38,477 bases of DNA from a virus. The stretch covers positions 1 through 38,477 of IMG/VR virus record IMGVR_UViG_3300031673_005165; one strand, given 5' to 3'. The translations under genes were made by a program, and so were the position numbers. The notes under the pieces are model-generated. The model was not told where the DNA came from, did not search any database, and saw only the letters and a list, made by a program, of their open reading frames with translations. Shown here piece by piece: positions 5,213 to 35,407 of the stretch (position 1 is its first letter; every line of letters begins with the position of its first letter).

Positions 5213-6374
5213 AGATTTTAACAAATTTAAACTTGATCCTAAAACAGTAACAAATGTAAAAACTTTAAAAGAAATAATAGATTCCCAACCATTAATTATC
5301 CAGGCTCAAGTAACCCAAAAGAAAATGTCCTTATATAATAAAAAATTTAAAAAAGGTGATGTTATATGTATGTCTTTGGGTATGTACGAAATATTATCTA
5401 AAGATCGCGCAGGAAATAGATATTTCAGACCCGTTAGAAAGCCGATACCTTTCAAACGATATCGTGGCCAAGATCTAACAAATAAAAAACTTTTAATATC
5501 AAGAACTGGAGGAGTTGGTGATATACTATTCCTCCAGCCAATAGTAAAATATTTAAAACAAATGTACCCCACTTGTAAAATAATCTTCGCTAGTGGGGAA
5601 AGATTCTCAAAAATATTCAAAAGTTTTCCTACAAACCTTATTGACAGAGTAATAACTGTACCATATTCAATCCATGAAATTTACAAATCAGATTATCAAC
5701 TAATATTAGAGGGTTGCATTGAGCGATGTGAAGAGGCTAAAATAATGAACTGTTATGATATTATGTCAACAGTTGCTAACGTAGAAGCTAATCCCCTTAC
5801 GGATCCACTAGAGCTTATTCCAGACCTTTCTTTAAACGAAGATAAAAATCTACCCAATAAATTTATTGTCCTCCAATGGCGAGCCAGTTCCCCTTTAAGA
5901 TCTTTAACTCCGTCAATTTTTAAAAAGATATGTTCAAAAATTATACAGCATAATTACAAGATAGTAATAATAGATAGACCGGATTTTTTACATAAAACCT
6001 ATGATATTATACAGAAGAGTGGTTTACCAAAAGAAGCACTCACAGTTATAACAAATTCCATTGATATAAATCATGCACTTTCTATTTTGTCGGTTTCAGA
6101 CGGCATTGTGGCTGTAGATAGTAGTTATTGTCACTTTGGAGCAGCATTAAATAAAAAAACTATAGGATTGTTTGGACCATTTGAGGGTAAAAATCGATTG
6201 GGATATTATAAAAATATTAAATGGGTTGAGCCAAAAGATGTACATTGTCCATTTTTTCCATGTAATTTTCATAAAAAGGAGATGTGTTCTGATATAATAG
6301 AAAATAAATATGTTCAATGTATGAACAATATTGATATTAAAGAGTTTAAAAAAGAATTTGAGGAGATGTTCTAA
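5202..6374 (+). CDS. GT9-like glycosyltransferase (heptosyltransferase family)
   Basis: This 390-residue protein has about 95 extra N-terminal residues of unknown role, then a GT-B glycosyltransferase of the GT9 (ADP-heptose:LPS heptosyltransferase) type. The first domain opens with 'RTGGVGDILFLQP' at 101-113, the usual glycine-rich loop. The second holds 'AVDSSYCHFGAAL' and 'GLFGP' at about 304-328, the family signature for nucleotide-sugar binding. Several Cys near the C-terminus are unusual and might bind metal. The start codon lies inside the end of the HNH gene. A role in building or altering a lipopolysaccharide-like glycan is likely by family; the sugar is not known. Confidence 0.78.
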   Translation: MQNKDFNKFKLDPKTVTNVKTLKEIIDSQPLIIQAQVTQKKMSLYNKKFKKGDVICMSLGMYEILSKDRAGNRYFRPVRKPIPFKRYRGQDLTNKKLLISRTGGVGDILFLQPIVKYLKQMYPTCKIIFASGERFSKIFKSFPTNLIDRVITVPYSIHEIYKSDYQLILEGCIERCEEAKIMNCYDIMSTVANVEANPLTDPLELIPDLSLNEDKNLPNKFIVLQWRASSPLRSLTPSIFKKICSKIIQHNYKIVIIDRPDFLHKTYDIIQKSGLPKEALTVITNSIDINHALSILSVSDGIVAVDSSYCHFGAALNKKTIGLFGPFEGKNRLGYYKNIKWVEPKDVHCPFFPCNFHKKEMCSDIIENKYVQCMNNIDIKEFKKEFEEMF

Positions 6375-7366
6375 TGAATACAGTTCGACCAGATATATTT
6401 AAAGCAATAGCAACACCAAAACTTATACTTCCTCTTAAAGTTTGTACAGTAGGAGCCTTTCAAAATAAATATTCTGATAATATTCGTTTGTTTAATGCAT
6501 TTAAATACACAGAAGGTGTAAAAGCAAATGTGTTCGATTATAGAGCAAATGTATCAAAATTAAACAAATTAGATTTTATAGAAAAGTTTGTTAAAAAAGC
6601 TAAAGAAGTAGACCTTATGGTTATATGTAAAGGTAATAATATATATCCTGAAGCAATTAAAGAAGCCTCAAAATATACAAATTTATATTATTTCATGATG
6701 GATGTAAGCACACATTTCAAAAGTTCTAAAAATGTGGTAGAGTTTTCAAAATATTGTAACTATAGAAGTTGTACAGGGTTTGGGGTGGCTTTAGATCTTT
6801 CTAATTTAATAAACCTTCCAGTTTTTCATATAATACATGGTTCAGATAAAAATATATTTAAACCAGCTAGAGAAAAAATTGTCAAAGATATAGATGTATC
6901 ATTTGTTGGTGGTAAAGATGATGAGAGAATGAGAATATACAATAATTTAAAAGAAATTAATGATTTGAAAATAGAATTTCATGGACCAGGGTTTGATAAA
7001 TATATACCACCAAAAGAAGTCGTTAATATATATAGAAGAAGCAAAATAGTTTTAAATATAAGTAGAGGAAATTATTCAGGGTATACTTCCATTCGTCTTT
7101 GGAATATTATGTGTTCTGGTGCATTTGCATTAACTAAAAAGATAAAGGATATTGAATTATTAGATATAAAAAATGGTATACATGTGGAATCATTTAATAC
7201 ACCTCAAGAATTAATTGCTAAGATTAATTATTATTTAGAAAACGAAAAGAAAAGAAATTTAATTGCCAAAAATGGGCACAATTTTGCAATAAAAGAAAGA
7301 ACATGGAAAAAAACAGCAGAAAGAATATTGTCTGTTGTTTTAGAATATGAAGGGTATAAAATATGA
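6374..7366 (+). CDS. CgeB-like glycosyltransferase
   Basis: A 330-residue GT-B type protein. The C-terminal half carries the pattern of CgeB / 'glycosyl transferases group 1' proteins: 'DVSFVGGKDDERM', 'EFHGPGFDKYIPP', 'VVNIYRRSKIVLNISR', 'SIRLWNIMCSGAFAL', then the closing helix 'TWKKTAERIL'. The N-terminal half is a divergent Rossmann-like domain. The ATG overlaps the previous stop (TAATG), so it is coupled to the GT9 gene. It probably adds a further sugar to the same acceptor. It is related in fold to the product of 8492, and the two flank a radical SAM gene. Confidence 0.72.
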   Translation: MNTVRPDIFKAIATPKLILPLKVCTVGAFQNKYSDNIRLFNAFKYTEGVKANVFDYRANVSKLNKLDFIEKFVKKAKEVDLMVICKGNNIYPEAIKEASKYTNLYYFMMDVSTHFKSSKNVVEFSKYCNYRSCTGFGVALDLSNLINLPVFHIIHGSDKNIFKPAREKIVKDIDVSFVGGKDDERMRIYNNLKEINDLKIEFHGPGFDKYIPPKEVVNIYRRSKIVLNISRGNYSGYTSIRLWNIMCSGAFALTKKIKDIELLDIKNGIHVESFNTPQELIAKINYYLENEKKRNLIAKNGHNFAIKERTWKKTAERILSVVLEYEGYKI

Positions 7367-8499
7367 AAAAGGATATGAGACCATCCCAATATTTATATTG
7401 GAAACAATTACTAAAACACCTCAATAACAAACCAGAAAAAATATTTAATAACGAATTTATTTGGCCTCGGCAATTCGAGATTCATCTTCCAGGGGATCAT
7501 ATAAAACCATGTCAGTTACACTGTTCTCATTGTGCTGGAAAGTTTTTCAACAAATCACTTGGTTATTGGGAGCTTGATTGTTTAGAATTATTAGATAAAC
7601 TAAAAGGAAGTATACCATTCCATATCTACGGCGGAGCGTATACGGAACCCTTGACAAACCCCTACTTCATGTCTTTTATGGCACTAACTAAAAAATATAA
7701 TAACCACTTTGGGATTCATACTAATGGCGTGGCTTTAAAAACTTTAGATGATCAACAAGGGTTTCTAACAGAATTAAATAGATTATCGACGGATGATGTA
7801 GATTATTTAAGTATTTCTTTAGATGCAGGTTTTCCTGAAACATGGGCTAAAACTAAGGGTACTAAACATAAAGAATGGTTTGATGATATAATTGAAAGCG
7901 TTGCAAGAGCAGTTAAAATAAGAAACAAAAGTGGTAGAGGCCATGCCATAAGACTCTGTTATTTAATATCCCCCGAGTCTGGAACCAGAGAAGATTTTGA
8001 GAATATCGTCAAAATATCAAAAGAGATAGGAGTAGATAGTTTAAGATTTTCTATACCCTTCGGTAACTATAATCAATCATTCGAAATAATAAAAAAATAT
8101 AAAGAAGCAGTAGAATTAACGGGTGATATTAAATATAGAAGTTTATTAGAAGACCTAGTTTCAAAAGATAAAAATGAAAGACCTTACATCTTCTACACAG
8201 GACCAGAATTCACAGATATAGACTTATTTACTTTTAAAACATGTACTTATGGTTACTATCAAATTACATATGGAGCAGATGGTTATTGTTATAAATGTAG
8301 TACATCAGCTACACCAACAGCAACACAGTGTAGATTAGGTAAAGCTACTAGTGATTTAAATAAGTTTAAAGAAATGATTATGAAAAATTATAATAAAGGT
8401 TGGAACTGCCAGAAGAGTTGTTTTGATAATGGTATTAGGTGCAATCGTATGGGGTTTGAAATATGTATAGCTTATAAGGAGTGGAAAAAAAATGAATAA
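7363..8499 (+). CDS. Radical SAM enzyme with C-terminal Cys-rich (SPASM-like) region
   Basis: This 378-residue protein has the radical SAM [4Fe-4S] motif CX3CX2C at C50, C54 and C57 ('PCQLHCSHC'). A 'GGAYTEP' loop at 90-96 (equivalent to GGEP, SAM amine binding) and 'IHTNG' near 117 follow, in the usual TIM-barrel order. The last 110 residues contain at least eight Cys ('CTYGYY', 'CYKCST', 'NCQKSCFDNGIRC'), suggesting a SPASM or twitch-like domain with auxiliary clusters. Such enzymes modify peptides, sugars or nucleosides by radical chemistry. Lying between two glycosyltransferases, a sugar or glycan-linked substrate is plausible. It overlaps the previous gene by 4 nt and the next by 8 nt. 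Confidence 0.8.
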   Translation: MKKDMRPSQYLYWKQLLKHLNNKPEKIFNNEFIWPRQFEIHLPGDHIKPCQLHCSHCAGKFFNKSLGYWELDCLELLDKLKGSIPFHIYGGAYTEPLTNPYFMSFMALTKKYNNHFGIHTNGVALKTLDDQQGFLTELNRLSTDDVDYLSISLDAGFPETWAKTKGTKHKEWFDDIIESVARAVKIRNKSGRGHAIRLCYLISPESGTREDFENIVKISKEIGVDSLRFSIPFGNYNQSFEIIKKYKEAVELTGDIKYRSLLEDLVSKDKNERPYIFYTGPEFTDIDLFTFKTCTYGYYQITYGADGYCYKCSTSATPTATQCRLGKATSDLNKFKEMIMKNYNKGWNCQKSCFDNGIRCNRMGFEICIAYKEWKKNE

Positions 8500-9649
8500 A
8501 CCAACAGGAACTATATTCCTACCTAAAAAGTTCTCAGAAGAAACATACGTAACAGATCGTTACCACAATCTTTTCAAGGAAATACAAAAAAGATTGGGCT
8601 GGGATTTGATTATAGAAGATGATATAGATGTAAACAAAGTCAAAACAAACTATCTTTTAATATTTAAATGTCCTCAAGCAGATGATCCTAGTAGATTAGT
8701 TAATGTAAAAAATATTAACAGAACCGTTAGATTAATAGGGTATTATGCAGATTTGCAACAAAAAGGTAGAAGTGATATATATATTAAAAATATGGATGAT
8801 GTATTAGATAGATGTGATATAATTCTCACGGCATATAAAGAAGCGTTCATAGAGAAATGGGAAAAATACTGGTACAAAACAAAATGGTTTCCTCAGTTTT
8901 ATGGTCCAGATGAACGATTTGATAAACTAGATTATAATTTTAATAAGTGTATAAAAAAAATATTGCTAATAGGAGCAACTACTGTTAGATATTACCCTCT
9001 AAGAAATTTTATAGACAAAATAAACTATCATATAAAAAAAGTTTCTCATCCAGGGTATCAAATAAAAGATTTTGATAGAAAAACAGAATTGGGATATAAA
9101 ACCCGAGATTTATATGCAGAAGAAATAAATAAATATTGTGGTACTATTGCAACATGTTCTACTGAAAAATATGTGATTGCTAAATATTTTGAAATACCCG
9201 CTGCTGGTTCATTATTAATAGCTAACAAATGTAACGATCTTGTTGAATTAGGTTTTAAAGAAGATGTACATTATGTAGAGATTGATAAAACAAATGTACA
9301 CAAAAAGATATTACACATTATACAAAACTTCAACGCATATTGGTCTATTATTAAGGAAGGAAGAGAGTTTGTACAAAAAAACTTTTCAACAAAGGCTAGA
9401 GTAGATCAATTTGTAAAAATAATAGAAGAAGATTATGAGAATAATATAAAAGGCAAGGGTGAGATTATTATTGGTAATCGGCTTATATATGTGTGTGGTG
9501 CTAATGATATAAGAGCAGAAGGAAAAATTCAGGGTAACACGATGATTGTATATCATAATAATGAACCATATGAAGTTTATAATAAAGGGTACGATAAACG
9601 AAGTGATCTGCTTATATATAATTTCTGTAGGAAAGGTCTAGGAATATGA
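8492..9649 (+). CDS. CgeB-like glycosyltransferase carrying a terminase-derived segment
   Basis: A 385-residue protein. Residues about 150-312 follow the CgeB-like glycosyltransferase pattern ('KILLIGATTVRYYPL', 'EKYVIAKYFEIPAAGSLLIAN', 'REFVQKNFSTKARVDQFVKI'). Residues 321-350 then match residues 86-115 of this phage's terminase large subunit at 26 of 30 positions ('GKGEIII', 'RLIYVCGAND', 'RAEGKI'). Nothing in a glycosyltransferase calls for this. The final 35 residues are unlike anything else here. The glycosyltransferase part looks complete, so the tail seems to be an acquired extension. The start overlaps the previous stop by 8 nt and the stop overlaps the next ATG (ATGA). Confidence 0.75.
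   Translation: MNKPTGTIFLPKKFSEETYVTDRYHNLFKEIQKRLGWDLIIEDDIDVNKVKTNYLLIFKCPQADDPSRLVNVKNINRTVRLIGYYADLQQKGRSDIYIKNMDDVLDRCDIILTAYKEAFIEKWEKYWYKTKWFPQFYGPDERFDKLDYNFNKCIKKILLIGATTVRYYPLRNFIDKINYHIKKVSHPGYQIKDFDRKTELGYKTRDLYAEEINKYCGTIATCSTEKYVIAKYFEIPAAGSLLIANKCNDLVELGFKEDVHYVEIDKTNVHKKILHIIQNFNAYWSIIKEGREFVQKNFSTKARVDQFVKIIEEDYENNIKGKGEIIIGNRLIYVCGANDIRAEGKIQGNTMIVYHNNEPYEVYNKGYDKRSDLLIYNFCRKGLGI
9452..9541 (+). other. Terminase-like segment inside a glycosyltransferase gene
   Basis: These 90 bases encode the 30 residues shared with the terminase gene at 16802-16891. There are no gaps; by hand count about two thirds of the bases agree while 26 of 30 residues do. Most differences are therefore silent, and the piece is not a recent copy of the local terminase gene. 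It more likely came from a related phage's terminase. Confidence 0.75.
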
Positions 9650-10527
9650 AAGCTGTAATTGAACTTGTGTCGAATATATGTAACAGTAGTTGTAGATGGT
9701 GCTTTACCCAATATAAATCCAGCGAAGTGATAAATAAATGTTTCATGACAGATAATAACTTTAAAAAAATAATATTATTGAACAAGGGTTTGAAAATAAT
9801 ACCATTCTCTCATGGGGAAGCTCTTTTGCATAAAGGTTTTAATAATCTAATAACCTTTGCATTAAAAAATAACTGTACAATGAACAGAATTCATAGTAAT
9901 TTTGCGATGGATTTGGATAAGGAACACTTTGAGAATCTTGTGAATTTTAGATTTGTTACAGTAAATATCGGAGGAGCGACAGAAAAGACTCATTTTTTAA
10001 ATATGAAAACAGATTTCAATAAAGTTATTGGCAATTTAACAAAATTATGTGCATATAAAAAGAATACTAAAAGTGATGTTGTTATAGAATTAAAGATGGT
10101 TTTAAATAAAATTAATAGAAAAGATAAAGAGAAGTTAAAAAAATTAGGAAAAAAGATAGATAAATGCATAAAAGTCTCCACTTTTCCTATTTATTTTACT
10201 ACTTCTGATTCTACACAAGCTGAGATGAAAAGATTCTATGATAATAATATCGATGAGAGAGTTCCATGCAGAGATATAATAAAAGAAGAGAATGGTTTGA
10301 TAAAAGTTGTATCAAAATCAGTGAATGATATATGTTGTAATCATATATTGACCGTTCGATATAATGGTCTAGTGCAAATGTGCTGTCGTCCTAGATCTCA
10401 GGAAGGGATCGTGGGAGACGCATTGACTACCTCATTAATAGATATAAAAAATTCAGATATATATAGAAAGAATTTGAGAAAATTAATAAACAGAGAATAT
10501 ATAAGTTATTGTAAACATTGTAGTTAG
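9646..10527 (+). CDS. Radical SAM enzyme with SPASM-like C-terminus
   Basis: This 293-residue protein has CX3CX2C at C12, C16 and C19 ('CNSSCRWC'). 'FSHGEALLHKGF' (GGEP-like) and 'IHSNF' follow in the expected order. The C-terminal part holds 'CRD', 'ICCNHILTVRYNGLVQMCCR' and 'YCKHC', a Cys pattern resembling SPASM domains that bind auxiliary iron-sulfur clusters. It is shorter than and clearly distinct from the radical SAM protein at 7363, so the two are unlikely to be recent duplicates. It overlaps the glycosyltransferase gene before it by 4 nt. The substrate is unknown; SPASM members act on peptides, alcohols or amino sugars. Confidence 0.77.
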   Translation: MKAVIELVSNICNSSCRWCFTQYKSSEVINKCFMTDNNFKKIILLNKGLKIIPFSHGEALLHKGFNNLITFALKNNCTMNRIHSNFAMDLDKEHFENLVNFRFVTVNIGGATEKTHFLNMKTDFNKVIGNLTKLCAYKKNTKSDVVIELKMVLNKINRKDKEKLKKLGKKIDKCIKVSTFPIYFTTSDSTQAEMKRFYDNNIDERVPCRDIIKEENGLIKVVSKSVNDICCNHILTVRYNGLVQMCCRPRSQEGIVGDALTTSLIDIKNSDIYRKNLRKLINREYISYCKHCS

Positions 10528-10537
10528 AGGGATAAAA

Positions 10538-10984
10538 ATGAATAAACAAGAAATTATTGAGGAGATGTTTAAGGAAACTACTGTTTGTAAAACTGGTAGA
10601 GATGGTTACCAAAGGAGATTTTATAAAGGTAAATATTGGTATCGGGTATTATGGGACTTATGTAATCCAGAATTACCCTGTAAAGACTTTGATATCCACC
10701 ACAAAGATTTTGATGAACTAAATGATAATATTGAAAACCTTGCGCGTCTGACGAGAGCAGAACATACGAGATTACATGCTTTAAATAGAAGTGATGAAAC
10801 AAAAAAGAAAATGTCCGAGAATCATGCAGATGTTTCAGGAGCAAATCATCCTAAAGCAAAAACAATAATGGCGGAATATCAAATATTTTCAACTATGAAA
10901 TTGGCAGGACGTGCATTTTCTGTTACACCAGAATCGATATCATATAGAATAAAAAGAAATGTCCCCGGATATTTTTATATTTAA
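10538..10984 (+). CDS. HNH homing endonuclease
   Basis: A 148-residue member of the local HNH family. It has 'KGKYWYRVLWDL' near 28-39, the core 'FDIHHKDFDELND', 'AEHTRLHAL', a single short NUMOD3-like part ('SDETKKKMSENHADVSGANHP') and the NUMOD1-like tail 'YQIFSTMKLAGRAF' ending 'NVPGYFYI'. The ribosome binding site is GAGGG. It lies between the second radical SAM gene and the oxidoreductase with 9-10 base gaps, so it is the only operon copy that overlaps neither neighbour. Its tail shares the 16-mer AATGTCCCCGGATATT with the remnant at 21536-21577. Confidence 0.9.
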   Translation: MNKQEIIEEMFKETTVCKTGRDGYQRRFYKGKYWYRVLWDLCNPELPCKDFDIHHKDFDELNDNIENLARLTRAEHTRLHALNRSDETKKKMSENHADVSGANHPKAKTIMAEYQIFSTMKLAGRAFSVTPESISYRIKRNVPGYFYI

Positions 10985-10993
10985 GGAGTCAGT

Positions 10994-11842
10994 ATGTCAA
11001 TAGAAATCATCGGAAGTGGTTACTGGGCGAATAATATCAAGAAATATCTATCTAAAGAGGATTTGAAGTACACCGTAGATTCAAAATTTGAGAAAATTGT
11101 GTTGTGGAATGATCCAGAAGTTGATAGTGTAATAATAGCCACCCCTATAGAAACACATTATCAAATAGCTAAAGAAGCAATAATTGCTGGCAAAAATGTA
11201 TATATAGAGAAACCAATAACATCCACATATGAAGAAGCATTAGAAATCAAAGACTTAGCAACAGATTACAATGTAGTCGTAGGCGTAGATTATACACAAA
11301 TATTCTCTAAATCTATATTAAAAGCCAAAGATATATTATATGAACTAGGAAGAATAGAATATATAAAAATGGTTTCTTCTTCTCTTGGAAAGTTTACTAA
11401 TGACAATGTATATAAAGTTTTAGGATCTCATATTTTATCAGTTTTAGATATGTTTATGGATATAGAGTTCACAGATTTTAGATTTATTGACAATATACAT
11501 GACAATAGGGGAATTTGTACAACTGGAACAATTCTTTTCTACAGGGGTCATATAGATGTATCTTTAAATAACCCTAAGAGAGAATTCAATATTACTATAT
11601 ATGGTGAAAGGGGTACTCTTATTATAGATTTATTTAAGGAGAATACAGTACAATTAACCCTTTACAATAGAGATATAAACAAGAAAAGTGATATGTTGAT
11701 ATTTGAAAAACAAAATTACACATTCGATGAAAGAAATAACTTAAAATATTCGATGGATTATTTTAAGAATTTAATTAAAGGAGAAGCTAAGTCGAATATT
11801 GATATGGCAATTAGAGTAACTAAGATATTAGATAGAGGGTAA
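10994..11842 (+). CDS. Gfo/Idh/MocA-family oxidoreductase
   Basis: This 282-residue protein has the N-terminal Rossmann motif 'IGSGYWA' at 6-12, the conserved 'IIATPIETHYQIAKEAI' segment and 'VYIEKPIT' with Glu-Lys-Pro at 72-74. This is the family signature whose Lys is catalytic. The second domain ('GTILFYRGHIDVSL', 'YGERGTLIIDL') follows. Members oxidise, reduce or epimerise sugars with NAD(P), often nucleotide sugars feeding surface glycans. It is somewhat shorter than the usual 320-350 residues, with a compact C-terminal domain. Set beside four glycosyltransferases, it could prepare an unusual sugar. The ribosome binding site is AAGGAG. Confidence 0.82.
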   Translation: MSIEIIGSGYWANNIKKYLSKEDLKYTVDSKFEKIVLWNDPEVDSVIIATPIETHYQIAKEAIIAGKNVYIEKPITSTYEEALEIKDLATDYNVVVGVDYTQIFSKSILKAKDILYELGRIEYIKMVSSSLGKFTNDNVYKVLGSHILSVLDMFMDIEFTDFRFIDNIHDNRGICTTGTILFYRGHIDVSLNNPKREFNITIYGERGTLIIDLFKENTVQLTLYNRDINKKSDMLIFEKQNYTFDERNNLKYSMDYFKNLIKGEAKSNIDMAIRVTKILDRG

Positions 11843-15584: not shown

Positions 15585-16064
15585 ATGCCCAGAACAGGTG
15601 CACCCACAAAGTTAAACAAAAAGAAACAACAAGCTTTTTGTGAGGCTATAAAATTAGGATTGTCTAGAACCCGCGCTGCAAGGTTAATTGGTGTTACTAT
15701 GCAAACCATAGAAAACTGGTGTAGTTGGGGAAAAAGAGATGGTAAAGGGAAATATTTTACTTTTTTGAAATCTGTGATACAAAGTGAGGAGTTTTTTGTT
15801 GAGGATAATTTGAGAACTATTAGAAATGCCGCTAAAGGAAATGATCAAATCAAAGAAACAAGAACAACCCTTGATTCTAAGGGTAAAATTAAAGAGCAAA
15901 TAGTTATAGTCAAGGAACAAAAACCGCTTTGGACAGCCTCAGCATGGCTTTTAGAACGCCGTTGTCCACAAGAATTTTCACAACATCAGATTATAGACGA
16001 TAAGTCGGCAGAAAAAGTTGCTGAAGATTTGGAAGATATATTGAATGGGGGTAAAAATGAATAA
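15585..16064 (+). CDS. terS: Terminase small subunit
   Basis: A 159-residue protein with an N-terminal helix-turn-helix ('FCEAIKLGLSRTRAARLIGVT' begins near residue 18, then 'IENWCSWG'), the DNA-binding region that recognises the packaging site. A central helical part ('FLKSVIQSEEFFVEDNLRTI') for oligomerisation follows, then 'PLWTASAWLLERRCPQEF', a hallmark stretch of this small-terminase group. It starts the structural operon with AAGGA upstream. Its last codons (AAT GAA TAA) overlap the inserted HNH gene at 16057, which separates it from the large subunit. Confidence 0.85.
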   Translation: MPRTGAPTKLNKKKQQAFCEAIKLGLSRTRAARLIGVTMQTIENWCSWGKRDGKGKYFTFLKSVIQSEEFFVEDNLRTIRNAAKGNDQIKETRTTLDSKGKIKEQIVIVKEQKPLWTASAWLLERRCPQEFSQHQIIDDKSAEKVAEDLEDILNGGKNE

Positions 16065-16554
16065 AACTATCGAGGAGATGTTTGAGAAGACATATGTTAA
16101 GGATTATGGAGAAGGTGCCCGTAGATATTATAAAAGTAAAAGATGGGCAAGGGTTATTTGGGATATTATGCACCCAGAATCACCTTGTAAAGATTTTGAT
16201 ATTCATCATAAAGATAGTGATAAAACAAATGATAATATTGATAACTTACAAAGACTTACAAGAGCTGAGCATAATAAATTACACATGACTGGTAATAAAT
16301 ATTGGTTGGGTAAAAAACATACAGATTCGTCTAAGAAAAAGATATCTTTATCAAAGGTTAATCTTAGCGATGAAACCAGAAAGAAGATGTCAATAAATAA
16401 TACTGGATCAAAAAACCCCGCTGCGAAAGCCGTTATTATAAATGGACAAATATTTTCTACAATAAAAGAAGCCGCATATATTCTTTCTATTTCAACATGG
16501 TGTATATGGTATAGATTAAAACATAATAAACCAGGATATTCATATTGTGCTTAA
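16057..16554 (+). CDS. HNH homing endonuclease between the terminase genes
   Basis: 165 residues from ATG 16057; this start is preferred over 16045 because GGGGG lies just before it and the sister genes begin the same way. It has 'SKRWARVIWDI', the core 'FDIHHKDSDKTND', 'AEHNKLH', NUMOD3-like 'HTDSSKKKISLSK' and a second repeat, then the NUMOD1-like tail 'IFSTIKEAAYILSIS' ending 'GYSYCA'. The GTG start of the terminase large subunit lies inside its last codons, so the insertion keeps translational coupling. Homing endonucleases beside terminase genes are well known in phages and favour transmission of the neighbouring gene. Confidence 0.9.
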   Translation: MNKTIEEMFEKTYVKDYGEGARRYYKSKRWARVIWDIMHPESPCKDFDIHHKDSDKTNDNIDNLQRLTRAEHNKLHMTGNKYWLGKKHTDSSKKKISLSKVNLSDETRKKMSINNTGSKNPAAKAVIINGQIFSTIKEAAYILSISTWCIWYRLKHNKPGYSYCA

Positions 16555-21031: not shown

Positions 21032-21535
21032 ATGAGCATTATAATTGTAACAACCGCTTCTGGTTCAACTTCAAATAGTTATGTAACGACATCCGAGATG
21101 GAAGCCTATTTTGAACAAAATCCGCTATTCTATTCTACATGGACCGATATACCAAATAAGGATACATGGGTAGTTTTTGCGGCAACCGCGATAGATAGGC
21201 TGTCTTTCAGTGGCTCTAGATATGTAACTACTCAATCCATGCAATTTCCCAGAGATATTACTGATGACTATACTGATGCTGGATATGTACCTCAAGCCGT
21301 GAAAAATGCTCAATGTGAAATGTTAATATATCAAAAACTTCATGTAGATAGTATAACAATGAACCCTAACCCTAAAACCAGTGGGATTACAATTGATAGT
21401 TCTACAGTAATATCATTTTTTGAAAAAGAGAATCCATTCAATCAATTAGCTGCTGGCGGAAATATGAAAACTGTTTTTAGCTTATTGAAGATTTGGACTG
21501 GAGCCAGTTATATGGCCCACCTTGGAAGAGCTTGA
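21032..21535 (+). CDS. Head-tail connector / adaptor protein
   Basis: A 167-residue protein starting with a beta strand ('MSIIIVTTASGSTSNSYVT') and then the helical pattern of head-tail adaptors annotated as 'DnaT-like ssDNA-binding protein' or gp6-like: 'WVVFAATAIDRL', 'QFPRD', 'VPQAVKNAQCEMLIYQKL'. It would sit below the portal ring. The position directly after the capsid gene supports this and argues against DNA replication, despite the usual database name. The ribosome binding site is AAGGAGAAGG. Confidence 0.75.
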   Translation: MSIIIVTTASGSTSNSYVTTSEMEAYFEQNPLFYSTWTDIPNKDTWVVFAATAIDRLSFSGSRYVTTQSMQFPRDITDDYTDAGYVPQAVKNAQCEMLIYQKLHVDSITMNPNPKTSGITIDSSTVISFFEKENPFNQLAAGGNMKTVFSLLKIWTGASYMAHLGRA

Positions 21536-21600: not shown

Positions 21601-22116
21601 ATGAATATAGTCGAAAGAGCAAAATGGGCACCAAAATGGACCATTAATAAATATAAAGATGTTGATGGTAAAATAGCTGAGGCTTTAAAGGCTGGTGCAA
21701 GTACAGAAGACTTTAAGGCTTTTGAAACATTAGAATTTGAGGGTAATTTGCTTTTAAATACCGGTATTGATGAAATGTGGAATATTATAAATGGTGATAG
21801 TACTAACGTGTTTTCAAATGACCTTTGTAAAATTGGCGTTGGTGATGATGGAACTACTGCGGCTTCTGCTTCTCAGACAGATCTTCAAGGTGCATCTACT
21901 GCTTATGTAACAATGGATGATACCTATCCAACTTCAGCTACTCAGGCTACTAATTATAGAGCTACATTTGATACCTCAACTGGAAATTTTCATTGGAATG
22001 AGTTCACAATCAAGCAAGATACCAGTTCTATTTGTTTGAACAGGAAGTTATCAGATAAGGGTACAAAAGTCGTCGGGGAAACCTGGTCTGTAACCTTAAC
22101 AATAACTTTATCTTAA
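21601..22116 (+). CDS. Putative structural protein (capsid decoration or fibre-like)
   Basis: A 171-residue protein, Thr/Ser-rich in its second half and beta-strand-like, ending 'GETWSVTLTITLS'. The N-terminus ('RAKWAPKWTINKYKDVDGKI') is basic and could be an anchor. Its position between the connector and the giant 22198 gene, a strong ribosome binding site (GAAGGAG) and a hairpin downstream suggest a virion protein made in quantity, for example a head decoration. No named family is recognised with confidence. Confidence 0.55.
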   Translation: MNIVERAKWAPKWTINKYKDVDGKIAEALKAGASTEDFKAFETLEFEGNLLLNTGIDEMWNIINGDSTNVFSNDLCKIGVGDDGTTAASASQTDLQGASTAYVTMDDTYPTSATQATNYRATFDTSTGNFHWNEFTIKQDTSSICLNRKLSDKGTKVVGETWSVTLTITLS

Positions 22117-22197: not shown

Positions 22198-25100
22198 ATG
22201 GCATTTGAAAACTTTCAAGCATCAATATTACCAGGAGCAGAAGGAACATACGATACAGTCGTAGTTGATCATCCCTACATTATTAAAGATGGTGATACTT
22301 ATAAATGTTGGTATGTTGGAAAAAATGCTGAAGCTCATTATAGGATTATATATTGTGAAGGACCAGATGGTTTAAATTGGTCAAACCATCAATTAGTTAT
22401 AGATTATGGAAGTCAAGGTACTTATGATTCTTCATATGCATTTGGGCCCGGTGTAATTAAAGATGGAGAACTTTATAAGTGTTGGTATACAGGGTACAAT
22501 GGCACAAATTATAGAATTATATATTGTCAAGGACCAGATGGTATACATTGGTCAAATTTTCAATTATCTATAGATATAGGGTCGGAAGGTACATATGATA
22601 CAGTACATGTTCATGAACCAACAATAATAAAAGATGGTTCTACCTATAGATGTTGGTATGCTGCTAACAACGGATCAAATTGGAGGATTCTCTATTGTGA
22701 AGGACCGGATGGTTTAAATTGGTCAAATCACCAGATGGTTATAAATATAGGCCAGTCTGGAACTGGTTATGATACACCTCATGTTTATGGTCCAGTTGTA
22801 ATAGAACATGGTGATATTTATAAATGTTATTATAGTGGTTATAGTACTTCTGGCGGAACACATATTAGAACAATGTATGCCGAAAGTGTTGACGGTTTAA
22901 ATTGGTCAAACTTCGCAATGGTTATAAATTATGGTAGCGAAGGAACATATGATAGTATCCATGCATATGATCCAGGTGCAATAGTAGATGGTACAAAAAT
23001 AAAAGTATGGTATACAGGACGTGGTGGTTGGAGTATTATATATTGTGATGAAGACGCAATTACACCTTACATTGTTGATGATAATGGATCAGGAACAGAA
23101 ACACTTTCAATAGATAAATCAATAATAGTAAATGAGACAGGCTCAGGGTCCGAACAAATATCCATCAATAAACCAGTAGCAATAACAACAGTTGATGATT
23201 CTGGTTTAGGGGTAGAAGAAGCTACTGTTGATAAAATAATAACGATTGCTGACTCTGGTATTGGTGTGGATAGTGTTGTGGCCGGACAAGTAATAACAGA
23301 TGGAACTTGTGATGATAGTGGAATTGGAACAGAAGATATAACCCTTGATAAATCTTTAGTAGTAAATGAGACCGGTGTAGGGTCTGACAACATAACACTA
23401 GATAAATCTTTAGTAGTAACTGAGACTGGAACGGGTACAGAATCTTTCTTTATGAGTAAGGACTTATTAATATCAGAGACTAGTTCAGGATCTGATGACA
23501 TATCTGTTGATATGAATTTGGATGGATTTGAATTTTCTGGCTTTACAGCAATAACTGATTCAACAAATGTTTTAGATGGTGTACATATTCTTTCTTTTTT
23601 AAATGACAACGATACTTATAGAAGTTGGTTTACACAAGGTCCGACATATTATTATGCAGATAGTACTAATGGTGAAGATTGGGAGAATATACAAGCTACT
23701 AATTTAACCACAACTACTAGTGTAATATTAAAGGATGGTAAATTTATAGGATGGTCTTCTGATAATGAAGGTGGTGGTTCTAAAGATTATATAGACTCTA
23801 CAAATGGAGTTACTTGGACTGCAAGAATTCAAACCAACTTGCCTAATACAGCCAGTGCTATTATTTATGATTATATAAATTCAGTATATAATGCATGGGC
23901 TAATAATAATAAATATACTAGTTCAGATGGTGTAACTTGGACATCAGAGTCATGTACAGGTTTAATTGCCGCTTTAAGTTGTGTTGTTTTACAAACATGT
24001 AATTTTAGGGGTTGGTATACTGATGGTGGTGATATTTATTATTGTCAAAGTATTGATGGAAAATATTGGTATAATCATCAATTAGTTATTAACAAAGACA
24101 GTGAAGGTACATATGATACACTTGGTGCATACGAATCACAAATATTTAAAGATGGTGATGATTTTAGATGTTTATATACTAGCCGTGATTCAGAAGGTGA
24201 TTATTATATTATTTATTGCGACACTGAAGTTGTTTTAAATACGGTAACAGATACTGGCTCAGGGTCAGAAATACCATTAGTTGACAAAACCCTCCTATTA
24301 ACAGATACAGGATCTGCTTCCGATGAAGTATATGTCGATAAACATGTATTAGCAACTGATATTGGATCAGGAGCAGATACACTTCTAAAAGGAGAAGACT
24401 TTTCTATATCTGACAGTGGTTCAGGGATTGATACAATATTATTAGATAAAAACCTCATAATCCCAGACACAGCCTCCGCTCTAGATTCTATTCTCACATC
24501 AAAAGATTTTTCAATAAATGAGACTGGATTAGGTGTGGATATTCCTTTAATAGATAAAGATTTATTAACAACTGATGATGGTTCAGGGTTAGAAACAATA
24601 TTAAGAGACCAAACTTTATCTGTTGGTGATTCAGGGTCTGGTTTAGACTCTATTCTAAGAGGAAAAGATTTTTCAATAACAGATGATGGATCTGGTTTGG
24701 AAAATATATACGTAGATAAGATTATAAATATCAACGATATAGGGACGGGTTTAGAAGGATTACTATTAGACAAAGCCCTCATATTAGAAGATTTATCAAC
24801 TGGTACAGAAGCAATTTTAATAGATAAAACTCTAGTAGTAACAGAATTAGGAACCGGTGTTGACGAAGCTGATCTAGGCAATCTAGTTTTTACTATAACT
24901 GATGTAGGAGTTGGTGTTGATACTGTCCTTATAAATAAAAACATTATTATAAGTGATATTGGCACGGGAATTGATACAATTCTAAGAGGAAAAGATTTTT
25001 CAATAACAGAAGAAGGTTCAGGGGTTGATGATTTATTAAGTGATAAAGAATTAATAACAACAGATTCAGGGTCCGGTATTGATATTATTTATACAGATAA

Positions 25101-27564
25101 AACTTTTCTAATAGATGAAAACGGAATAGCTTCTGACAGCATTCTTGTTGATAAAACAATAATAATCCAAGAAACCATAAGTGGTGTAGATAGTTTATTA
25201 GTAGATAAAGTCCTTAGTTTAAATGATATAGGATATGGATTGGATGCATTATTAATAAATAAAACCTTGTTACTAGAAGAAATAGGTACTGGGGCCGTAG
25301 CTATTTTAGTTGATAAGATATTATATATGGATGATGATGGTTCAGGGGCTGATAGTTTAATTATAGCAAATACGTTTTTTACCATTACAGATGTAGGAGT
25401 AGGTGTTGATACTGTCCTTATAGACAAACATTTTTCAATAGTTGAAACTGGTACAGGTATAGATGAAACTATCGTAGATAAACTTTTAAATATAAATGAT
25501 GAAGTTTCGGGACTTGATATAGTACTAAATGATAAAGATATTCCAATAACAGATTCAGTAACCGGTATTGAAACAATATTGAGTGACAAAGATTTGCCTG
25601 TAAATGATGATGGATTAGGAACTGATAACGTATTGAATGATAAGACTTTTACAATGACTGATTTAGGAACTGGTGTTGAAATAGTTTTAACAGAAAAAGA
25701 TATTTCAATAGCAGAATTAGGAACTGGTGTTGATATAATATTAAACGATAAGGACCTTCCAATAACTGATAATGGTACCGGAATAGATGATTTATTATTA
25801 AATAAAACCCTTATATTAGATGACAATTCTATTGGAACAGATATATTATTAACTGATAAAGACTTTCCTATAAATGATTCAGGATCTGGTATAGATGTAG
25901 TTTTAAGAGATAAAAACATTTTTATAACAGACGATGGTGCTGGTGCAGATGTAATTCTAAGAGGAAAAGATTTTTCTATAACTGATTTATCAACTGGTAC
26001 AGATATAATATTGAATAATAAAACTTTATCTATAAGTGATAATGGTTCAGGGTTAGATACTGTATTAAGTATTAAAGACCTCAATGTCTCTGATGTTGGG
26101 TCCGGCGTAGATATAATTCTTACAGGAAAAGATTTTTCAATAACTGATAATGGTTCAGGACTAGATATTATTTTAAATGATAAAGATTTTTCTATAAATG
26201 ATTTGGTAAATGGTATTGATATAACTTTAGTAGGTAAAGATATACCTATAAATGATAATGGAATTGGGACGGACTTGACTTTAGTAGATAAAGATTTTTC
26301 AATAACTGATATTTGTTCAGGATTAGATACAATTCTTGTCAATAAAGATATAATTTTATATGAGGCTGGTTCATTAACCGATGCAATTCTTGTTGATAAA
26401 CTTATAGATATAAATGATATTATTTCAGGGTCCGATATAATTCTTGTTGATAAAACCTTATTAACCACAGATATAGGATCAGGATTAGATGATTTATCAA
26501 ATTCTGTTTCATTTACAATAAATGATAGTGGTATAGGAACCGATATAATTCTTGTTAATAAAAATATAACTTTAGTTGATAATGGTTCAGGGTTTGATAT
26601 AATATTAAACGATAAAGAATTATTAATAAATGATTCAGGACTTGGTGTTGATAATTTATTAACTGATAAAAATATACCTATAAATGATGACGGACTTGGA
26701 GTTGATAATGTACTCAGTGATAAAACAATAATCATAAATGAAGTAGCAACTGGTGGAGATACAATATCCTTAGATAAGATTATAAATGTTGGAGATACAG
26801 GGCTTGGACTTGATAGTATATTAAACAGCAAGAATATAATTATAACTGATGACGGTGTTGGTATAGATGCATTATTAGTAAACAAAACCCTCATTATGAA
26901 TGATAGTGGAATAGGAATTGATAGTATACCTTCAGATAAGGATTATTTAATATCTGATAGTGGTTTAGGAGTTGATAATGTCCTAGTTGGAAAGATTATA
27001 GTTTTAAATGATAATGGTGTTGGTACAGATTCTGTTACTGGAAATATATCCTTTGTAACTGTTGCTGATAGTGGAGTTGGGACTGATATAATAAGTGTAA
27101 ACAAACAGTTAATCGTAGAAGAGACTGGTGTAGGCATTGAAACAATAGATCAATTTGACCAAAACGAATATTCTAGAAGAAGAAATACTTCTATACCTAT
27201 AGATATGATTAGAAGAGTAGTAAGAAGCCAAACAAATTGTAATGCTAACAGCATCCAAATAAGATATAATTCAAATACTTGTGTATACGACAGTATAAAT
27301 CTTACAAATACTATATCAAAAACTACTACTGGGATGTTGGCCCTTAGATATAATTTTACAGAAGCAGAGATTATAAAGAGTAATGGAATAGTTGATAGAT
27401 GGGATTTCAAATTAGCAATTAACGCAACAGCAATGGTTGGTATAAATCCTTCATTAAATGACTCGATAACAATTGATAGTATTGATAGACAAATAGTTGA
27501 TATAAAACCTATAAAAATAGGTGGATATTTAATAATGTGTATTTTTCACGTGAGAGGTCATTGA
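22198..27564 (+). CDS. Giant repetitive virion protein with head-closure-like C-terminus
   Basis: A 1788-residue protein in several blocks. Residues 1-290 and about 440-680 contain Asp-box-like repeats ('GPDGLNWSN', 'STNGVTW', 'SSDGVTW', 'SIDGKYW') typical of beta-propeller or sialidase-like folds, with alternating 'YKCWYTG' strands. Between and after them lie 18-residue repeats of the form 'I.D.GSG.D.IL.DKDFS': about eight near 293-440 and about fifty from 680 to 1650. The last 140 residues ('RRNTSIPIDMIRRVV', 'DSITIDSIDRQIVDIKPI', 'GGYLIMCIFHVRG') differ in style and resemble phage head-closure proteins. The gene lies exactly where that protein is expected. It may display a long surface fibre at the head-tail junction. 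Confidence 0.6.
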   Translation: MAFENFQASILPGAEGTYDTVVVDHPYIIKDGDTYKCWYVGKNAEAHYRIIYCEGPDGLNWSNHQLVIDYGSQGTYDSSYAFGPGVIKDGELYKCWYTGYNGTNYRIIYCQGPDGIHWSNFQLSIDIGSEGTYDTVHVHEPTIIKDGSTYRCWYAANNGSNWRILYCEGPDGLNWSNHQMVINIGQSGTGYDTPHVYGPVVIEHGDIYKCYYSGYSTSGGTHIRTMYAESVDGLNWSNFAMVINYGSEGTYDSIHAYDPGAIVDGTKIKVWYTGRGGWSIIYCDEDAITPYIVDDNGSGTETLSIDKSIIVNETGSGSEQISINKPVAITTVDDSGLGVEEATVDKIITIADSGIGVDSVVAGQVITDGTCDDSGIGTEDITLDKSLVVNETGVGSDNITLDKSLVVTETGTGTESFFMSKDLLISETSSGSDDISVDMNLDGFEFSGFTAITDSTNVLDGVHILSFLNDNDTYRSWFTQGPTYYYADSTNGEDWENIQATNLTTTTSVILKDGKFIGWSSDNEGGGSKDYIDSTNGVTWTARIQTNLPNTASAIIYDYINSVYNAWANNNKYTSSDGVTWTSESCTGLIAALSCVVLQTCNFRGWYTDGGDIYYCQSIDGKYWYNHQLVINKDSEGTYDTLGAYESQIFKDGDDFRCLYTSRDSEGDYYIIYCDTEVVLNTVTDTGSGSEIPLVDKTLLLTDTGSASDEVYVDKHVLATDIGSGADTLLKGEDFSISDSGSGIDTILLDKNLIIPDTASALDSILTSKDFSINETGLGVDIPLIDKDLLTTDDGSGLETILRDQTLSVGDSGSGLDSILRGKDFSITDDGSGLENIYVDKIININDIGTGLEGLLLDKALILEDLSTGTEAILIDKTLVVTELGTGVDEADLGNLVFTITDVGVGVDTVLINKNIIISDIGTGIDTILRGKDFSITEEGSGVDDLLSDKELITTDSGSGIDIIYTDKTFLIDENGIASDSILVDKTIIIQETISGVDSLLVDKVLSLNDIGYGLDALLINKTLLLEEIGTGAVAILVDKILYMDDDGSGADSLIIANTFFTITDVGVGVDTVLIDKHFSIVETGTGIDETIVDKLLNINDEVSGLDIVLNDKDIPITDSVTGIETILSDKDLPVNDDGLGTDNVLNDKTFTMTDLGTGVEIVLTEKDISIAELGTGVDIILNDKDLPITDNGTGIDDLLLNKTLILDDNSIGTDILLTDKDFPINDSGSGIDVVLRDKNIFITDDGAGADVILRGKDFSITDLSTGTDIILNNKTLSISDNGSGLDTVLSIKDLNVSDVGSGVDIILTGKDFSITDNGSGLDIILNDKDFSINDLVNGIDITLVGKDIPINDNGIGTDLTLVDKDFSITDICSGLDTILVNKDIILYEAGSLTDAILVDKLIDINDIISGSDIILVDKTLLTTDIGSGLDDLSNSVSFTINDSGIGTDIILVNKNITLVDNGSGFDIILNDKELLINDSGLGVDNLLTDKNIPINDDGLGVDNVLSDKTIIINEVATGGDTISLDKIINVGDTGLGLDSILNSKNIIITDDGVGIDALLVNKTLIMNDSGIGIDSIPSDKDYLISDSGLGVDNVLVGKIIVLNDNGVGTDSVTGNISFVTVADSGVGTDIISVNKQLIVEETGVGIETIDQFDQNEYSRRRNTSIPIDMIRRVVRSQTNCNANSIQIRYNSNTCVYDSINLTNTISKTTTGMLALRYNFTEAEIIKSNGIVDRWDFKLAINATAMVGINPSLNDSITIDSIDRQIVDIKPIKIGGYLIMCIFHVRGH
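24240..27155 (+). repeat. About fifty 54-bp coding repeats
   Basis: Imperfect tandem units of 54 bases (18 residues), with conserved GAT..TGG.TC.GG..T.GAT and an AAAGA(T/C) step. A smaller set of about eight units lies at about 23070-23520. Neighbouring units differ at many sites; unit families such as those encoding 'RGKDFSIT' recur at a distance, which suggests past shuffling. Regular spacing also produces long empty frames on the opposite strand that are not genes. Confidence 0.85.
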
Positions 27565-27642: not shown

Positions 27643-28089
27643 ATGAATATTAAGGAGATGTTTGAGGAGACTACTATTTGGAAAAGTGGTAGAAATAGTG
27701 AACGAAGAAGATTTTATAGAGGTAAATATTGGTATAGGGTATTATGGGATCTTATGCATCCAGACCAACCTTGTAAAAACTTTGTTATACATCATATTGA
27801 TTTCAATGAACTAAATGATGATATATCGAATCTTGTGCGTCTAACGAGAGCAGAACATAATAAAATTCATAAGACTGGTAAAATATTTTCAGAAGAACAT
27901 AAACAAAAAATGTCTCAGAATCATTTTGATAATTCTGGATCAAATCACCCTAGTGCAATAGCAGTAAACATAAATGGAAAAATATTTTCAACTGGAAGAG
28001 AAGCTGCACGATATTTAAATGTGGACCCAGCTACAATAAGAAATAGAATATTATCAAAGAATTTCCCAGGATATTCCTATGCCAGTTAA
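27643..28089 (+). CDS. HNH homing endonuclease in the head-tail gene block
   Basis: A 148-residue member of the family. It has 'RGKYWYRVLWDLMHP', the core 'FVIHHIDFNELND', 'AEHNKIH', NUMOD3-like 'FSEEHKQKMSQNHFDNSGSNHP' and the NUMOD1-like tail 'GKIFSTGREAARYLNVD' ending 'GYSYAS'. A strong ribosome binding site (AGGAGGAG) precedes it. Its last 11 bases contain the start of the tail-completion gene at 28079. The insertion separates the presumed head-closure domain from the next neck protein. Confidence 0.9.
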   Translation: MNIKEMFEETTIWKSGRNSERRRFYRGKYWYRVLWDLMHPDQPCKNFVIHHIDFNELNDDISNLVRLTRAEHNKIHKTGKIFSEEHKQKMSQNHFDNSGSNHPSAIAVNINGKIFSTGREAARYLNVDPATIRNRILSKNFPGYSYAS

Positions 28090-28516
28090 ATCCAATATCA
28101 CTTCCTTTATTAAAAGAGTTAAAGATAGAAATAAGGAATATTCAAAGAGGGCTTTAGAAACATATAAAGGTTCTTCTATGAAATTAATAGAAACACTTCA
28201 AGCAGATTCACCAGTGAACACAGGAAGATATAAATCCGGTCATACCCTTTCAATTCATCATCCCTCGGCATTCGTACCATCAGAAGATGAAAATTTTGAT
28301 GCTCTGGCCGAACAACAATTAACAAATGCTAAGGCCGCTCTAGATGAGGTTCGTTCTGAAAAGATTATAAAGGTATTTATAGTTAATAATCTACCTTATG
28401 CAGAATCTGTGGAAAATGGGACGGCTAATAGTCCTCCTAGACTGATTTACGGAAAGGCAAAAACAAAATTTTCAGATATAGTTGAGGAATCAGCTAATAA
28501 CTTAAAGGATAAATAA
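28079..28516 (+). CDS. Tail completion / neck protein (HK97 gp10-like)
   Basis: A 145-residue protein starting 'MPVKSNITSFIKRV' with a long N-terminal helix. The marker stretch 'ADSPVNTGRYKSGH' near 42-55 and 'VNNLPYAESVENG' near 98-110 follow, a combination characteristic of HK97-gp10-like proteins. These complete the tail-to-head interface in siphoviruses. The ATG sits inside the HNH gene's last codons, so it depends on translation of that gene or on internal initiation. Confidence 0.85.
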   Translation: MPVKSNITSFIKRVKDRNKEYSKRALETYKGSSMKLIETLQADSPVNTGRYKSGHTLSIHHPSAFVPSEDENFDALAEQQLTNAKAALDEVRSEKIIKVFIVNNLPYAESVENGTANSPPRLIYGKAKTKFSDIVEESANNLKDK

Positions 28517-28519
28517 ATT

Positions 28520-28939
28520 ATGGCAAATATGGATGTTTATAAAAGTTTGGAATCGAAAATAATAAGTTATTTTAGTTCAAATTGGTCGTACACATCCGTA
28601 CAATATCCCAATGTAACATTTGACCCTAATAATCTGAGTAGTTGGGCCCAGATTCACATAATTCCTATATCTAGGAGAAGATTATGTTTGGGGGGTAATA
28701 ATGATACTGGACAGTTAACCAAGGGAACTTTGGTTGTAAACTTGTTCACACGGCAAGGGACTGGTACTGGTGTTATTAAAGATCTTGTAACAAATGCTAT
28801 TACTTTATTTAATTATGTAGAGATTACAATCAGCACAGGAGAAAAAATAGAATTTCGGGAAGCTAGGTCGGAAGGCGGTTACCCTGATGATATTTGGTGG
28901 AAAGAACCTGTAAAATGTGATTTTCAATTATTATTATAA
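28520..28939 (+). CDS. Tail terminator protein
   Basis: A 139-residue protein with 'MDVYKSLESKIISYFSSNW' helix, strands around 'VTFDPNNLSSWAQIHIIPIS' and 'TKGTLVVNLFTRQGTGTG', and a closing strand 'WKEPVKCDFQLLL'. This mixed fold and order, directly before the tail tube gene, match phage tail terminators (gpU / DUF4128-like), which cap the tail and set its length together with the tape measure protein. It begins three bases after the gp10-like gene. Confidence 0.75.
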   Translation: MANMDVYKSLESKIISYFSSNWSYTSVQYPNVTFDPNNLSSWAQIHIIPISRRRLCLGGNNDTGQLTKGTLVVNLFTRQGTGTGVIKDLVTNAITLFNYVEITISTGEKIEFREARSEGGYPDDIWWKEPVKCDFQLLL

Positions 28940-28960: not shown

Positions 28961-29941
28961 ATGTCTACAACTTGGGCCTCCGGGTCGAATGGTAAAGTAG
29001 CTCTTATAAGAGAAGATACATTTGGGGTTACGCCTACCACATTAGATAGTACAAATATATATGTAGTCCCATTCAATACATGTGATTTAACAATGAATCA
29101 AGCACCTCAAACACCAGCCACAATAACTGGTAATAGATCTGCTTCCCGCCCCTTTAGAGGAAACAAAGATGTAACGGGTAATATTGTTGTTCCTGTCGAT
29201 AGTAGGGCAATTGGACTTTGGCTTAAATTATTGTTTGGGTCTCCAAGCACTACTGGTTCAGGACCATATGTTCACGTGTTTACTATACCAACAACTATGC
29301 CTTCATATACAATCGAGAAAGGTTTTACTGATATAAGTGATTATTATAAATACACTGGATGTAAAGCATCTAATTTTTCATTGACATACGGCGGAGATGG
29401 CGAACTTACAACTACTATTGGACTACAAGGAGCAAATGAAGTTTATTCAGCGACCTCAATGATAGCAGATACTATATTTGAAACTGATTGGTCTGCAATG
29501 TCTAATAGGCTTTATAATAATATGGGAACTGTTTCTATTGGTGGTGAAACTATGTGTACAACAGAATTTTCAGTTAATGTAGATAATGTCCTAGAAAATG
29601 CTTATTGTATAAATGATCAGGGTGCTAAGAACGAATGTGTTGGTGGTCAAACTGTTGTAACTGGAAGTTTTACTGGTATTTTTGCAAATGATACATTTTT
29701 AGCTATAGGTAGAGCAGATACAGAAATGGCATTAACCTTGAGTATAACAGATGGAATTTATACTTTCTTATTGACTTTTGATGAGGTTGTTTTAAGTACA
29801 TCTTCGCCTGGTATAACTGGGCCTACTGGTATATATCAAACCTTAGATTTTACAGCTTTTTATAACAATGGTGCAAGTGTATCTTCTATTAAAGCCACTC
29901 TGACAAATGGTGTTGCTTTATATGATGATACTACTGTATAA
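28961..29941 (+). CDS. Major tail tube protein
   Basis: A 326-residue protein beginning 'MSTTWASGSNGKVALIREDTFGVTP', an N-terminal pattern common in siphovirus tail tube proteins. 'GNRSASRPFRGNKDVTGNI' and 'LLFGSP' follow. The rest is strand-rich ('SFSLTY'-like repeats, 'TTTIGLQGANEVY') with a closing 'TLDFTAFYNNG' region. It would form the hexameric tube. The ribosome binding site AAGGAG is strong, in keeping with high expression, and the frameshifted chaperone genes follow as usual. Confidence 0.9.
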   Translation: MSTTWASGSNGKVALIREDTFGVTPTTLDSTNIYVVPFNTCDLTMNQAPQTPATITGNRSASRPFRGNKDVTGNIVVPVDSRAIGLWLKLLFGSPSTTGSGPYVHVFTIPTTMPSYTIEKGFTDISDYYKYTGCKASNFSLTYGGDGELTTTIGLQGANEVYSATSMIADTIFETDWSAMSNRLYNNMGTVSIGGETMCTTEFSVNVDNVLENAYCINDQGAKNECVGGQTVVTGSFTGIFANDTFLAIGRADTEMALTLSITDGIYTFLLTFDEVVLSTSSPGITGPTGIYQTLDFTAFYNNGASVSSIKATLTNGVALYDDTTV

Positions 29942-34918: not shown

Positions 34919-35407
34919 ATGCATAAATATATAAATGGTATACAACAAGATATGTCTTGGGTCATTTGGAACAAATATAACCCCGAGGATAAAATAGAAC
35001 ATGGTGATGAATATATTATACATCATAAAGATTTTGACCACAATAATAATAATATCAACAACTTACAGAAAATGACAAATAGTTCACATTCTAGATTACA
35101 TGGTTTAAAAAGAAATAATATACCATCGTTTAAAGGTAGAAAACATTCAAAAGATACTCTTTTAAAAATGTCGAAAATAAAAAAAGGAAAAATATTTTCT
35201 GAATCTACCAAGGAAAAAATGTCCCAAAATCATTCAGATTTTTCAGGATCAAAAAATCCTAGAGCTAGAGCAGTAAATATAAATGATCAAATGTTTGGAT
35301 CTGTAAAAGAAGCTTCTATTGTATTAAATATAAATAGAAATATTATTGATAAACAACTTAAAAATAATATTGAAGGTTATAAATATATGGAGGTTTCTAA
35401 TGAATAA
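34919..35407 (+). CDS. HNH homing endonuclease between tail genes
   Basis: A 162-residue family member lacking the N-terminal 'MFEETTI'-type extension seen in its sisters; it starts almost directly at the 'MSWVIWNKYNPED' stretch. Core 'YIIHHKDFDHNNN' and 'SSHSRLHGL' are followed by two NUMOD3-like repeats ('KDTLLKMSKIKKG', 'STKEKMSQNHSDFSG') and a NUMOD1-like tail ending 'GYKYMEVSNE'. The last codons supply both the ribosome binding site (GGAGG) and the overlapping ATG of the next gene at 35400. It begins three bases after the tape measure stop. Confidence 0.88.
   Translation: MHKYINGIQQDMSWVIWNKYNPEDKIEHGDEYIIHHKDFDHNNNNINNLQKMTNSSHSRLHGLKRNNIPSFKGRKHSKDTLLKMSKIKKGKIFSESTKEKMSQNHSDFSGSKNPRARAVNINDQMFGSVKEASIVLNINRNIIDKQLKNNIEGYKYMEVSNE

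Follow-up and report, generated by a model that had tools for sequence, protein, structure and literature searches.

The window, a virus record of 38,477 bases that was analyzed at its full length, contains one uninterrupted frame of 1788 codons whose product is probably a head-closure protein carried behind a long host-binding arm. In the reading that we favor, and consider likely, this giant gene arose by capture of a fiber cassette within the neck gene cluster, and the ring formed by the head-closure protein anchors glycan-binding arms at the neck. Neck fibers with dedicated anchors are already known, and the new element would be the use of the stopper itself as the fiber anchor. We found no head-closure protein with a fused fiber in the literature searched, which covered few subscription journals. 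Neck fibers are common in tailed phages, but their mode of attachment has been worked out for only a few of them. A stopper that serves as fiber root would offer a directly testable anchor for such fibers, and an essential connector ring may tolerate an addition of ~1640 residues.

Type 1 necks are encoded in the gene order Ad1-Hc1-Ne1-Tc1 (PMC4362835). In the window, Ad1, Ne1, and Tc1 are separate genes in this canonical order, and the giant lies in the Hc1 position (Table 1). The preliminary description had listed capsid, connector, giant, gp10-like protein, tail terminator, and tail tube in succession, with no separate head-closure gene among them. A six-frame search agrees, as no second Hc1-like frame was found in the 38,477-base record, which is possibly an incomplete genome. 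The order itself stands as it was given, and two omitted genes have to be added to it, P171 (21601-22116) and an HNH endonuclease (27643-28089). Because Ad1, Ne1, and Tc1 are in order and the window has no other Hc1, the fusion fills an empty Hc1 slot. As a side observation, the Pfam family PF20557 (“DnaT_2, putative DnaT-like ssDNA binding protein”) coincides with Ad1 (21032-21535), and its name looks misleading for this protein.

Table 1. Neck genes of the window and predicted domains of the giant protein
Feature	Coordinates	Strand	Size or residues	Basis
Head-tail adaptor Ad1	21032..21535	+	167 aa	phrog_477, E 2e-16
P171, phrog_23653 protein	21601..22116	+		E 1.2e-38
Giant fusion: propeller, 8 repeats, propeller, 53 repeats, head-closure domain	22198..27564	+	1788 aa	
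Glycosidase-type (GH130-like) beta-propeller, predicted distal tip	22198..23070	+	residues 1-291	Pfam PF04041, PDB glycosidases
8 repeats of about 18 residues	23071..23520	+	residues 292-441	position-specific matrix
Second Asp-box-like blade set	23521..24240	+	residues 442-681	motifs STNGVTW, SSDGVTW, SIDGKYW
53 repeats of 18 residues, predicted all-beta arm	24241..27111	+	residues 682-1638	matrix; low-confidence model
Head-closure (Hc1) domain	27175..27561	+	residues 1660-1788	phrog_161, relatives-only profile, hhalign, Foldseek
HNH homing-type endonuclease between Hc1 and Ne1	27643..28089	+		PF13392, E 4.7e-9
Neck protein Ne1 (HK97 gp10-like)	28079..28516	+		phrog_169, E 1.3e-16
Tail terminator Tc1	28520..28939	+		phrog_179, E 3.8e-16; PF13554
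Tail tube protein	28961..29941	+		PF18906, E 2e-43

The last ~140 residues of the giant had been described as resembling a head-closure protein, and phrog_161, a relatives-only profile, hhalign with controls, the fold match, and the gene order now agree on this point. Searched alone, the C-terminus matches PHROG 161 (head closure Hc1) with an E value of 0.0022 and 19.3 bits across profile positions 25–119 of 120, the first ~30 profile positions being poorly aligned. It also matches the stand-alone Hc1 genes of two relatives, L029 and L030 (phmmer, E 1e-4), which encode 120 aa directly after the adaptor and themselves match phrog_161 at E 8e-26. When profiles were built from stand-alone Hc1 genes alone, with the window sequence left out, a search of the ORFs in all six frames of the window matched the giant's C-terminus and nothing else (E 9e-8 to 5e-5), and iteration over the relatives brought this to E 4.7e-9. 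Profile–profile comparison of the C-terminus with 70 relatives by hhalign gave a probability of 95.5%, versus <1% for each of the controls, which were ten other window segments and eight shuffled sequences.

Structure prediction points the same way. The AF2 model of the C-terminal domain is of moderate confidence, with a mean pLDDT of 62 and a core of about 75–87. Its best PDB matches by Foldseek are the FCWL1 interface, the T1 stopper, the Bas63 connector, the phiCD508 neck, the R4C stopper, PBSX XkdH, and SPP1 gp6/gp15/gp16. The seven best are all stopper, neck, or head-closure entries (E 0.01–0.09, probability 0.66–1.0), with modest query-normalized TM-scores of about 0.28–0.44. In the BFVD library of viral models, the best E value is about 1e-5, and the names of the matches include “Head Tail Attachment” and “Closure knob.” The comparison with SPP1- and HK97-type stoppers that had been proposed for this domain thus returned, among its best solved structures, nearly all stopper or neck proteins. 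Since the PDB E values and TM-scores are modest and the AF2 input alignment held Hc1 relatives, which may favor a stopper fold, we take the fold match as corroboration and not as proof. A phmmer search of the PDB with the C-terminus returned nothing meaningful. On the profile evidence and the predicted fold, the last ~130 residues are assigned to the Hc1 family (SPP1 gp16-type). Hc1 proteins are small and single-domain, at about 120 aa, and the giant has 1788 aa; small size is typical of the family rather than defining, and the Hc1 claim is therefore limited to the C-terminal domain.

In the relatives, Hc1 is a gene of its own. Relatives were gathered by their major capsid protein (L002–L038 and L042–L103) because the Hc1 alignment is too divergent for a pattern scan. 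Of roughly 100 viral loci whose capsid gene is related, 65 had a detectable Hc1, as did 11 of 14 loci from bacterial genomes, and the gene was stand-alone in every case. The open frames of all 76 Hc1 genes are at most 351 aa long, with some of the loci being near-duplicates, and the Hc1 members found here are proteins of about 110–140 aa. A phrog_161 search of 793 bacterial genomes gave frames of at most 220 aa with a single exception, a long frame in L128 that turned out to be a PAS-domain sensor kinase matched by chance. Where a repeat protein is present, it has its own gene, which follows the capsid gene and precedes the neck genes; its length is 203 aa in L029, 278 aa in L038, 344 aa in L034, and 783 aa in L026. 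L029 has the order P171-like, repeat protein, 91-aa gene, Ad1, Hc1, and L066 has the minimal order MCP-Ad1-Hc1-Ne1-Tc1. Thus, the arrangement that had been named as contrary to the initial proposal, the same large gene kept beside a separate stopper, was found in none of these relatives. Some of the stand-alone repeat proteins (L026:13752-16103, L034:12575-13609, and L038:13289-14125) are built from other units of about 18–22 residues, such as GTILYNGQQPAAQVGQTAQATA.

In front of the Hc1 domain, the giant alternates propeller-like regions with repeats. Residues 1–291 match the GH130-type propeller family PF04041 with E 4.3e-5, slightly short of the curated cut-off, and PDB glycosidases, including an anhydro-galactosidase, with E 1e-4; these matches bear out the propeller-like blades that had been noted ahead of the C-terminal domain. 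The homologous region of L040 clears the PF04041 curated cut-off, and blades 55% identical to residues 1–291 are present in L039 and L041. Four further Asp-box-like blades in residues 442–681 were recognized mostly by eye and from weak matches (Pfam E 0.21), and tblastn with the N-terminal region of the giant extends to residue 676. These propeller blades also turn up in baseplate or fiber genes of myophage type (L040:4842-7655, L041:8070-9266, and L039:9992-10837), and the gene in L039 adjoins several genes resembling glycosyltransferases.

About fifty 18-residue repeats had been reported. An iterative position-specific matrix counts 61 copies of a unit with the consensus SITDSGSGVDIILVDKDL, 8 of them in residues 292–441 and 53 in the main block (residues 682–1638), versus 0–1 copies in shuffled giant sequence. 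The structure prediction suggested for the repeat block, carried out on six repeats, gave two strands per repeat, at low confidence (pLDDT 53) and with no usable fold match. The units weakly resemble RTX repeats, an identity that was dropped because Pfam gives no RTX match. A polar, basic linker, DQFDQNEYSRRRNTSIP, connects the repeats to Hc1. The DNA of the giant has no near match among the phages searched, and tblastn and pattern searches run directly with the C-terminus, repeat block, tube, and portal brought up no relatives or nothing useful.

The source of the arm can be traced through its upstream neighbor, P171, which ends about 80 bases before the giant. With P171 as query, 80 further viral loci (L136–L215) were collected, which together with four loci of named phages make 84. 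An ORF matching the window's repeat HMM is present in 52 of the 84, and in 45 it lies within 1.5 kb on the same strand. In these cassette proteins, N-terminal domains of various kinds (Laminin_G_3 in L189, for example) precede 18-residue repeats and a short variable tail, and no recognizable Hc1 was seen in the stand-alone repeat proteins of the 52 loci. The giant shares with them the partner gene, the repeat family, and the pattern of variable N-terminal domains that are sometimes of lectin type, but in the window Hc1 takes the place of their short variable C-terminal tail. The window's capsid type is absent from the P171 loci, and the neighbors of P171 in Bacillus phage SP-15 and Listeria phage LIS04 are baseplate genes. 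The pair thus has the character of a cassette that different phage types have in common. By sequence comparison, the ~1640-residue arm of the giant is homologous to the separate repeat proteins encoded beside P171 in other phages. The combination of phrog_23653 and 18-residue repeats, widespread in many unrelated phages (L136–L215) and poorly described, would be a cassette that moves between phage types and fits different parts of the virion. In one locus, L202:8487-12035, a repeat-family protein runs on into 484 residues of another protein, for which no identity was found; this may be a second kind of fusion between arm and anchor.

Our model for the origin of the giant begins with insertion of the P171 and repeat-protein cassette between Ad1 and Hc1, which is the most likely first step; the repeat gene would then have been joined to Hc1 in the same reading frame. 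In SPP1- and lambda-type necks, the stopper ring is made of 6 or 12 subunits. If the giant follows these known stoppers, each of its 6 or 12 Hc1 subunits would sit in a ring under the adaptor, closing the DNA channel, and its N-terminal arm would project sideways, giving the neck 6 or 12 arms with the stopper ring as their anchor. Judging by where the cassette family carries its variable, sugar-binding-type domains, we infer that the giant is rooted in the virion by its C-terminus and points outward with its N-terminus. A beta-solenoid of 53 coils at 4.8 Å per coil would give an arm about 25 nm long, and an extended arm would be longer. Displayed at the neck, the arms would be receptor-binding structures, and by analogy with the whiskers and neck fibers of other phages, their propellers most likely serve to bind glycans of the host and to make attachment more probable.

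The proposal that arm and stopper function as a single chain has to be set against the possibility that they part company. Cleavage of the giant between the repeats and Hc1, or internal initiation of Hc1, would yield an ordinary stopper plus a separate head, neck, or tail fiber. The two parts are indeed separate genes in every relative examined, and the polar, basic linker could be exposed. However, no protease gene was recognized among the proteins scanned, and the giant has no known cleavage motif. Furthermore, the giant starts at an ATG with a Shine-Dalgarno sequence, whereas the sole internal ATG near the junction (27205, residue 1670) has none, its duplex energy being +1.7 compared with −3 to −11 for the starts of other genes. 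With this ATG lacking a ribosome-binding site, Hc1 appears to be made only within the giant, and we regard a separate stopper as unlikely.

The fusion is known from a single metagenomic virus genome, of which no close relative was found. With no second example, it could have come about by faulty assembly, or by a chance mutation that arose recently in a nonviable genome. The longest exact DNA repeat within the giant gene is 32 bases, though, which makes it unlikely that the length of the gene reflects collapse or expansion during assembly, and the junction lies in unique sequence. All 1788 codons are open, and the other neck genes are all intact. Moreover, because the P171 and repeat cassette separates Ad1 from Hc1, the window differs from its relatives by more than a lost stop codon. 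An artifact or a dead genome strikes us as quite improbable. We give still less credence to the idea that the giant, as a fiber protein, ends in another kind of beta anchor with no more than a resemblance to Hc1, the true stopper having been missed. The modest single-sequence PHROG score and TM-scores leave some room for it, but the profile and profile–profile tests with their controls favor Hc1, no other frame of the window fills the Hc1 slot, and Hc1 has no match in the stand-alone proteins of this repeat family.

Several known systems help to place a head-closure protein with an arm. Like the Hc1 (SPP1 gp16-type) stoppers of phrog_161, the giant has the C-terminal domain, the predicted fold, and the position within Ad1-Hc1-Ne1-Tc1, to which it adds its ~1640-residue N-terminal arm. 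Hc1 can evidently enter into fusions, since phrog_17193 is a double-domain family in which Hc1 matches positions 3–118 and Ne1 positions 135–250; there the partner is a small neck protein, whereas in the window it is a fiber. The whiskers of T4 (fibritin) and the neck appendages of phi29 are host-interaction fibers at the neck, made of separate proteins bound to the collar, and the giant would share their role. In lactococcal 936 and P335 phages (TP901-1), the neck passage structure (NPS) consists of neck fibers ending in carbohydrate-binding modules (CBMs), which raise host attachment; it is a separate, nonessential protein with an N-terminal BppU-like anchor, a coiled-coil stalk, and a C-terminal CBM (PMC6669499). 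In contrast, the giant would have a stopper as its C-terminal anchor, and it carries a glycosidase-type propeller at its N-terminus and a repeat stalk that is predicted to be all-beta. By analogy, it may work like a neck fiber, but its anchor, polarity, and stalk set it apart from an NPS.

A bolder version of the model, which we offer as a long shot, is that, through a mobile fiber cassette, an essential siphophage stopper ring has come to anchor 6 or 12 long neck arms that bind glycans, and that receptor engagement could directly influence stopper opening and DNA release, because each arm would be covalently part of the DNA plug.

Two further features of the window deserve mention. Three HNH homing-type endonucleases lie among its structural genes (16045-16554, 27643-28089, and 34919-35407), one of them between Hc1 and Ne1 and one between both terminase genes. 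Upstream of the terminase, positions 5202-11842 hold three genes of glycosyltransferase type, two radical-SAM genes, and one gene of sugar-oxidoreductase type, a cluster that possibly serves glycosylation of the virion or of the host surface. Glycan-related-looking genes also adjoin the capsid gene in four of the capsid relatives (L042, L043, L010, and L032).
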